Source of the DNA: an uncultured Holophagaceae bacterium
Lineage (GTDB): Bacteria > Acidobacteriota > Holophagae > Holophagales > Holophagaceae
DNA: 34,190 nucleotides
Reading direction: 5' to 3'
Assembly (NCBI GenBank): GCA_903890595.1
Contig: CAITBU010000238.1
Span: 1-34,190 of the forward strand
The notes beneath the pieces are model-generated. The model saw nothing but the letters and a program-made list of their open reading frames with translations, did not search any database and was not told the DNA's origin. The number at the start of each line of letters is the position of its first letter. Within the stretch, counting starts at the first letter, position 1. This document shows positions 4,334 through 29,275 of the stretch, piece by piece. The position numbers and the translations under genes are program-made.

Positions 4334-4407
4334 GGGATCTCCGGTGTTACGACACCCATCCTAGTCTCGACAGGACCAGAATGCCAGGGGAAGCAAAAGC
4401 AACCACT

Positions 4408-4486
4408 CTCGCAGAGGACGCGGAGAGAGCAGAGAGTCGCAGAGGACCTCTGTGCTCTCCGCGCCTTCCTCCGCAGCCTCTGCGAG
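4408..4486. repeat. GC/AG-rich imperfect inverted repeat
   Basis: The ends are perfect 10-base inverted copies: CTCGCAGAGG at 4408-4417 and CCTCTGCGAG at 4477-4486. The interior also folds back on itself imperfectly through runs of GCGGAGAG/CTCTCCGC. It lies between the dut stop and the start of the dienelactone hydrolase gene. The gCAGAGGAcg vocabulary recurs beside the repeats near 4998-5040 and 25234-25466, which suggests a dispersed intergenic repeat family. Confidence 0.6.
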
Positions 4487-4498
4487 GGTAGTTAATCC

Positions 4499-4997: not shown

Positions 4998-5130
4998 GAC
5001 AGGTTGAACGCAGAGGACACCCGAGGGGCAGAGGAGCGCAGCGCCAGCAGTATCCCCTTCCTCCCCTTCATCCCTGTTTTCACGAAAAAGCATCGGGGAC
5101 AGGGATGAAGGGGATAATGGCAGAGACTTC
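4998..5130. repeat. Intergenic palindromic repeat, copy 1 of an AGGGATGAAGGGG family
   Basis: The core is a perfect 15-base inverted repeat: TCCCCTTCATCCCTG at 5062-5076 and its reverse complement at 5100-5114, around a 23-base loop containing AAAAAGCAT. The left flank (from about 5005) has GCAGAGGAcaccc and GCAGAGGAGCG words. The same core, with the same AAAAAGCAT loop word, recurs at 25318-25381. It sits between rlmN and dut. The outer limits given are approximate. Confidence 0.65.
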
Positions 5131-23892: not shown

Positions 23893-24681
23893 TCAGCGCT
23901 TCGTCCGCCGCTGGGCGAGGAGCCACGCGCTGAAGGACTGGGAGCCGTAGGCGGCGTCCCAGGTGTTGTGGTCCAGGCCTGGGTACTCGGTGTAGCGCAC
24001 GGGGGCGGACACGGCCTTCAAGGCCTCAGCCGCATCCCGGGAGCCCTGCACGGGCACCACGCTGTCCATTTCCCCGTGGAAGATCCAGACGGGCATTTTG
24101 GCGAGGCGGCGGGCCAGGGCCGGCAGGGCGGGGCCGTCCTCCGGGGGCACCACCGGCACCCCGAAGGCGTGGCTGGCAAGGTCCTTGGTCCACCCGCAGA
24201 TGGGTGCCACAGCGGCGAAGCGCTCCGGATTCCGGTAGGCCAGGTACCAGGTGCCGTGACCGCCCATGGAAAGGCCCGTGAGGTACACCCGGTCCAGGTC
24301 CACCTTGAACTCCCCGAGGGTACGGTCCAGGGCCGCCAGGGCCATGTCAGCCTGGGCACCGGCCCACTGGGTCTCCGGGCGGGCATGGGGGAACACCACG
24401 ATGGCGGGGAAGCGCTGGGGGTGGCGGCGGATGGCCGGGGCAAGGCCCGCCACGGTGGGTCGCAGGCCGTCCACGCCCCGCTCCCCGGCACCGTGGAGGT
24501 AGAGGATCACGGGCCAGGCCTTGGCTGGCGAGTAGTCCGCGGGGACATAGACCTGGTACCGGTAGCGCTGGCCGCCCAGGTCGAGGGTGCGGTCGAGGAA
24601 GCCGGTCTCGGCACCCTGCACCCCCAGGGAACCCGCCCACAGGCAGCCTGCGATCAGACCGGCGAGGTCGGCTCTAAACAC
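23893..24681 (-). CDS. Exported alpha/beta hydrolase, PHB-depolymerase/carboxylesterase-like
   Basis: A 262-residue exported serine hydrolase. A signal peptide (residues 1-24) precedes a domain with oxyanion-side motif LYLHGAGERG, nucleophile elbow GLSMGG, probable acid Asp in GEMDSVVPV and His in GLDHNTWD. This order and spacing fit the LpqC/esterase D-like group that includes poly(3-hydroxybutyrate) depolymerases and feruloyl esterases, but the substrate cannot be fixed. The start is GTG 24681 with a perfect AGGAGG six bases upstream. It lies 37 bases downstream of methylmalonyl-CoA epimerase on the same strand and may be co-transcribed, though the functions are not obviously linked. Confidence 0.87.
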   Translation of the reverse strand: MFRADLAGLIAGCLWAGSLGVQGAETGFLDRTLDLGGQRYRYQVYVPADYSPAKAWPVILYLHGAGERGVDGLRPTVAGLAPAIRRHPQRFPAIVVFPHARPETQWAGAQADMALAALDRTLGEFKVDLDRVYLTGLSMGGHGTWYLAYRNPERFAAVAPICGWTKDLASHAFGVPVVPPEDGPALPALARRLAKMPVWIFHGEMDSVVPVQGSRDAAEALKAVSAPVRYTEYPGLDHNTWDAAYGSQSFSAWLLAQRRTKR

Positions 24682-25129: not shown

Positions 25130-25497
25130 GGGGCCTCCGGGTAGGTGACACCAGTTTCCATCGAAAACCCCGTCAGCCCAGCAGAAAACCAGGGACCACC
25201 GGAATTGGGGCGGGCCTGAAAAGCCAGGAGAGATGAACGCGGAGGAAAGATAGAGAAGCGGAGGGGAGCGGAGAAAGAACTGTTATCGAGTGAACCAGGG
25301 GATCTTTGGTTCCCTACCCCCTTCATCCCCTCCATCCCTGTAAAAAAAGCATTTTGAACAAGGATGAAGGGGATGAAGGGGAGTTCAAGCTGGCCCGGTC
25401 TCAGTCTGCAGACCGCGGCTAGGCAGGCGAACCTCCGCGCTCCTCCGCTCCTCCGTCCTTCCTCTGCTTACATTCAGTGCTTTCCCAGCTGGTGCCC
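25130..25497. repeat. 368-base intergenic region with a nested inverted repeat, copy 2 of the AGGGATGAAGGGG family
   Basis: No gene is visible here. The inner hairpin has 21-base arms at 25318-25338 and 25361-25381 with two mismatches, and a 22-base loop containing AAAAAAAGCAT. Outer arms run from about 25234 (GAACGCGGAGGAAAGA...) to 25466 (...CCTCCGCGCTCCTCCGCTCC...), imperfectly complementary. Between inner and outer arms is GGTCTCAGTCTGCAGACC (about 25397-25414), itself partly palindromic. The inner core matches the repeat at 5062-5114, and the outer words match those at 4408-4486. It separates mce from the YecH-like gene, both on the minus strand. Confidence 0.65.
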
Positions 25498-29126: not shown

Positions 29127-29275
29127 TGGCTATCAGCTGTCGGCTATCAGCCATCAGCCAAGACTGGACGCCGACCCACCCGATCAGGCCAGCTTGTCCT
29201 GCACGCAATGAACAGGCACGGCTCACCCATTCGAGCCAGGACCTGCTTTAGCTGATAGCTGACAGCTGATAGCCA
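29127..29275. repeat. Inverted-repeat element (GGCTATCAGC type) filling a convergent gap
   Basis: Arms of 26 bases at 29127-29152 and 29250-29275 are inverted copies with two mismatches. Each arm contains repeats of the word GCTATCAGC or its complement GCTGATAGC, and the left arm is followed by a further partial unit (ATCAGCC). The 97-base interior shows no gene. The element occupies 149 of the 158 bases between the stop codons at 29121 and 29280. It may act as a bidirectional terminator or be a small non-autonomous mobile repeat. Confidence 0.75.

Follow-up and report, generated by a model that had tools for sequence, protein, structure and literature searches.

What is the nested inverted repeat that lies between positions 25234 and 25466 of the DNA analysed here, and what might have dispersed its parts? 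An initial annotation of the window (the whole 34,190-nt stretch, which is contig C238 of a 97% complete genome of 3.19 Mb in 526 contigs) had described a large nested hairpin at this place, with a core that recurs at 5062–5114 and outer-arm words that recur at 4408–4486, and had taken these shared parts to imply a repeat family that is dispersed and modular and that might be non-autonomous mobile DNA or a structured RNA. The nested hairpin is real. A core inverted repeat (arms 25318–25347 and 25352–25381, 30 nt each, 87% complementary, with a 4-nt spacer) sits inside an outer one (arms 25233–25273 and 25433–25473, 41 nt, 78% complementary) that is the longest inverted repeat of the whole window, and both fold beyond shuffles: the core hairpin has z = -3.9 and is equalled by none of 200 shuffles, and the nested structure as a whole has z = -7.4. 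The core and outer arms are both made of about three tandem 9-nt words, a property that the initial annotation had not recorded, and these words match the arms found around genes for GxxExxY proteins. The recurrence of the core in the dut-rlmN gap was borne out, its arms there (5062–5077 and 5099–5114) being 100% complementary over 16 nt. The hairpin around 4408–4486 was also verified (4401–4493, z = -5.2), but the supposed identity of its words with those of the outer arms did not hold: the former are of the GCAGAGGAC type and the latter, at 25234–25466, of the GCGGAGGA type, similar yet different families, and the GxxExxY element with the nearest arms is not the same for the two. In the window's list of inverted repeats, the first four entries (I1–I4) and I6 are hairpins of this kind. 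The features are listed below.

25233–25473, no strand assigned: outer hairpin of the GCGGAGGA-word family, with the core hairpin nested in its loop; among known arms, GxxExxY elements L253 (genome G027) and L227 (G018) have the nearest ones.
25315–25384, no strand assigned: core gene-less hairpin of the ATCC-word family; its 27-nt arm equals the arms of elements L216 and L223 at 25 of 27 nt.
5048–5119, no strand assigned: another hairpin of ATCC words, located between dut and rlmN and recognized by its arms and fold; the content of this gap varies across species.
5010–5042, forward strand: probably one remaining arm (GAACGCAGAGGACACCCGAGGGGCAGAGGAGCGC) of a further GxxExxY-type element, next to the 5048–5119 hairpin; assigned by word similarity and reading of the sequence.
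4401–4493, no strand assigned: hairpin of the GCAGAGGAC-word family, downstream of dut; the nearest arms are those of L218, L252, and L254, all of which bracket GxxExxY genes.

The closeness of the outer arms to those of the L253 and L227 elements argues that the structure at 25234–25466 is an ATCC hairpin nested within a GCGGAGGA hairpin. Both hairpins are found at the same site in G027, and an unrelated 7-nt-word repeat is present there instead in G035. Elsewhere in the window, positions 29127–29275 form a hairpin of a different class, built from 7-nt words (GGCTATCAGCTGTCGGCTATCAGC) and 96% complementary; this hairpin, which this genome has, is mostly missing from G027. After the point that corresponds to window position 23893, G027 (L183) carries an insertion of ∼700 bp that is absent from the window and that appears, judged from sequence only, to encode an AbrB-like/PIN-like toxin–antitoxin pair.

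When the whole genome was searched with the core, matches were obtained at about 35 sites on about 33 contigs, and the 4401–4493 query gave about 25 further sites; AAAAAGCAT by itself was unspecific (8 genome matches versus 5 for the reversed control). All 32 core copies scored in this genome are intergenic, mostly not between divergent genes and mostly near gene 3′ ends. The consensus of the hairpin family is TTATCCCCTTCATCCCCTTCATCCCTGTT-loop-AACAGGGATGAAGGGGATGAAGGGGATAA, with the word ATCC(C)-N4–5 and the foot TTATCCCC. Some copies carry a variant (TTATCCCCGTTCATCCCTTTTATCCCCGTC, or an ATCCG form) in place of one arm; their pairing is poorer, but ATCC still recurs every 9–10 nt. When aligned, 18 copies agree in their ATCC words and differ in the intervening spacers in ways that break the pairing, with compensatory changes at none of the base pairs; such a combination would be expected of a repeat that is recognized by a protein rather than of an RNA fold. 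The ATCC family is patchy in the genus, with many copies in G000, G003, G023, G027, G030, and G035 and 0–10 matches in each of the other genus genomes; no matches were detected in the other families tested, and no copies of the hairpin were found on plasmids. Bare single ATCC arms (CACAGGGATGAAGGGGATGAAGGGGAT) were seen in a few viral contigs (L157–L162), at apparent gene borders, where they adjoin 7-nt-word repeats such as GAAGGCTGAAGGCTGAAGGCTG.

In two sister genomes the core arms, TATCCCCTTCATCCCCTTCATCCCTGT, bracket an intact 132-codon GxxExxY open reading frame (L223 on contig C7 of G035 and L216 on contig C217 of G027). The start codon lies 7 nt inside the left arm, the stop codon falls within the right arm, and the 27-nt arms of L216 are identical. 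The hairpins and the gene-bearing element thus have terminal inverted repeats in common, the arms of L216 and L223 being equal to the consensus arms of the hairpins. Contig C305 of the genome under study holds a broken GxxExxY copy with both inverted ATCC arms kept, at a locus that is intact in G035 and G027. The loop motif GCTTTT/AAAAGC, present in 30 of 47 hairpins versus 4% in shuffles, also occurs at the right inner end of the ATCC element, as expected of internal-deletion derivatives; the shared sub-terminal sequence consists of this short motif only. GxxExxY corresponds to TIGR04256/PF13366 (PDDEXK_3), and the L223 protein scores 136.6 bits against a curated cut-off of 35. Besides the GxxExxY motif, the proteins contain the PD-(D/E)XK residues D, ExK, and QxxxY; a PD-(D/E)XK core plus QxxxY is known from RecB/Cas4-type nucleases. 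All of the 44 GxxExxY proteins have residues G26, E29, Y32, D68, E78, Q92, and Y96, and 43 of them have K80. Retention of the catalytic residues, together with dN/dS values of 0.07–0.16 between elements (pairs with good estimates), indicates that the GxxExxY gene is maintained under purifying selection.

To our knowledge, GxxExxY proteins, which are annotated in several bacterial phyla, have no known function. Across the genus, inverted arms of about three 9–10-nt words with a score of at least 33 are present at 38 of 46 GxxExxY loci, and the other 8 are without detectable arms. As controls, 341 ordinary genes were taken from contigs of these genomes that are rich in elements; only 5 of them reach a score of 33, the highest-scoring of which is the GxxExxY gene itself. 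Mismatched pairs of left and right arms mostly score 26 or less (6 of 120 reach 30 or more, mainly word-sharing elements), and the distant flanks of the same GxxExxY loci score at most 32. The words differ between elements, each lineage having its own, and they track the proteins moderately (Mantel rho 0.28, p 0.0015). For GxxExxY loci drawn from across the Acidobacteriota, a score of at least 28 is reached by 16 of 28, whose words are mostly CACAGAG-like, and about 10 of 28 are without detectable arms; similarity among the words makes the mismatched control high in this draw (19 of 140 pairs). GxxExxY genes on annotated secondary replicons of Bernardetia, Bacteroides finegoldii, and Sphingomonas parapaucimobilis are bracketed likewise; the Sphingomonas gene is located between fabD and fabG, with the element immediately after the stop codon of fabD. 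Searches for GxxExxY in phages, and in viral contigs with two queries, gave none.

Several related arrangements were encountered in the same surveys. In two plasmid records (L316 and L317, from Fusobacteria ZRK30 and Prevotella nigrescens), the repeats around GxxExxY are direct and not inverted; one example is CAGATTTAATCCGTGTACCTAT, which occurs on either side of the gene. One complete chromosome (G132:C1, L292–L309) has about 30 scattered copies of a repeated unit of >500 bp with a GxxExxY element in it; an identical internal deletion within the GxxExxY gene is shared by many of the copies, and the unit was likely moved by some other element. We rejected this amplification as proof of GxxExxY transposition because the repeated unit exceeds the arms and the gene is a passenger in it. 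Most of the genes for S23p/IVP four-helix proteins (PF05635) found in the genus have arms of 7-nt words, a parallel class (e.g., L233, L234, and L239), and contig C98 of this genome has an entire IVP element that G027 lacks.

Orthologous gaps differ in what they hold. The dut-rlmN gap, which contains an ATCC hairpin in the window, is occupied in G008 and G010 by a complete GxxExxY element whose words are CGCAAAGG; gene-less hairpins of other words are present in G002, G005, G009, G016, and G017, G014 has a single arm, and almost no such words occur in G001 and G013. The proC-glnS gap (gene names assigned by eye from sequence) contains the ATCC element in G035 and G027 and gene-less hairpins of three other words in G004, G017, and G007, and is empty in G012 and G032. 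Pairwise comparisons of G035, G027, and this genome revealed further insertions or losses of hairpins. Insertion polymorphism at orthologous sites is therefore present, mainly for non-ATCC word families; the ATCC hairpins of the three genomes are mostly at the same sites where compared, so this family does not appear to be visibly active now. No clean target-site duplication was seen in the dut-rlmN, proC-glnS, or G035/G027 comparisons. Many ATCC hairpins and no detectable ATCC-type GxxExxY gene were found in G023, G030, and G003 (the last only 85% complete), so that the mobilizer in these genomes would have been lost, missed, or another protein.

We propose, with a probability of about 0.7, that the hairpins are MITE-like, gene-less derivatives of GxxExxY elements and are probably mobilized by the nuclease. 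That they are GxxExxY element arms minus the gene is shown by sequence comparison, and mobilization by GxxExxY, a candidate nuclease, we infer. The element would be a unit of about 450–530 bp with the order inverted arm, GxxExxY gene, inverted arm, in which each arm has ∼3 tandem copies of a 9–10-nt word and each element lineage its own word. The nuclease may recognize these words, cut at the hairpin or its foot, and move or copy both its own element and, in trans, the gene-less hairpins, with insertion mostly just behind stop codons. Internal deletion of an element would yield a gene-less hairpin, and the structure at 25234–25466 could have arisen by nested insertion of an ATCC hairpin into the loop of a GCGGAGGA hairpin. 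The suggestion that the repeats are a dispersed, modular family of possibly non-autonomous mobile DNA is thereby strengthened, an autonomous-looking partner having been found in the GxxExxY element.

The closest competitor to this proposal accepts that the GxxExxY elements and the hairpins are one family and denies that the nuclease is their mobilizer: the gene would be cargo or serve a self-preserving function, and spread would be due to another enzyme acting in trans or to replication errors (template switching, hairpin-primed copying). It would account for the lack of a clean target duplication in the compared gaps, for the abundance of ATCC hairpins in G023, G030, and G003 without an ATCC-type GxxExxY gene, and for the carriage of GxxExxY by a different amplified unit in G132. 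We consider it unlikely, though not negligible, because GxxExxY is the only gene that was seen repeatedly within arms of this word class, the catalytic residues of GxxExxY are kept and its dN/dS is low, and the words are lineage-specific with matching left and right arms within one element. Far less probable is a structured RNA, either an attenuator or a bidirectional terminator, dispersed by selection. Although the window copies fold stably and the hairpins are mostly near gene 3′ ends, there is no Rfam match in the window at gathering thresholds, the 18 aligned copies are without compensatory changes, the window copies have no closing U tract (read from the sequence), and these arms are found elsewhere around a protein gene; the structured-RNA option of the initial annotation is not supported by either the Rfam or the covariation evidence.

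Least probable of all, and contradicted by these data, is the reading of the hairpins as ordinary REP/REPIN elements with a RAYT (Y1 HUH transposase) as their mobilizer. The doublet hairpins of ∼70 bp, intergenic and mostly not between divergent genes, are of a scale like that of REPINs (PMC3116915), but each single arm is a tandem of words and not a palindrome, and the consensus foot TTATCCCC is no GTAG/CGTC foot. A RAYT or Y1 transposase was ruled out as a partner, Y1_Tnp (PF01797) having 0 matches in the 97% complete genome. An intervening sequence of 23S rRNA was also ruled out, the site being intergenic between protein genes and the bracketed gene encoding GxxExxY, not S23p.

Returning to elements mobilized by GxxExxY, we give about even odds to the broader claim that they are a new class of minimal mobile DNA, in which a ∼450-bp unit whose sole enzyme is a stand-alone PD-(D/E)XK nuclease, GxxExxY, recognizing element-specific tandem 9-nt words as long inverted arms, would have spread word-specific gene-less hairpins through the chromosomes of bacteria from several phyla. 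If this is true, a structurally parallel class would pair S23p four-helix proteins with 7-nt words. Within the open-access literature searched, where we found neither a link of GxxExxY to word repeats or mobility nor the words themselves, the GxxExxY mobile element is apparently undescribed. The GxxExxY family model (TIGR04256/PF13366) describes the protein only; tying this protein to word-specific arms and dispersed hairpins gives it a candidate job and offers a testable enzyme/substrate pair.

Among known systems, the REPIN/RAYT pairs (PMC3116915, PMC3733652) are similar in having intergenic gene-less hairpin doublets, several word families per genome, and, for each family, a tie to a mostly single-copy gene with the same repeats at its ends. 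They differ in their enzyme, which is a Y1 HUH transposase rather than the stand-alone PD-(D/E)XK protein GxxExxY, whereas the arms described here are tandem 9-nt words without a GTAG/CGTC tag, in a genome without RAYT. MITEs are likewise short gene-less inverted repeats with ends common to a gene-bearing element, but no known transposase is present here, and the gene of the element encodes a nuclease-like protein without known function. The intervening sequence of Coxiella 23S rRNA, a unit of ∼430 nt long suspected to be mobile, has one small S23p open reading frame between inverted repeats of ∼28 nt (PMC4990558) and so resembles the present elements in bracketing a single small gene; the latter lie outside rRNA and encode another protein. 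CGTC-tagged REPs have been reported without a dedicated transposase (PMC3733652). Our results are relevant to how palindromic repeats move in RAYT-less genomes, for which GxxExxY is a candidate mobilizer; if it does mobilize them, a nuclease-only mobile system would take its place beside REPIN/RAYT.
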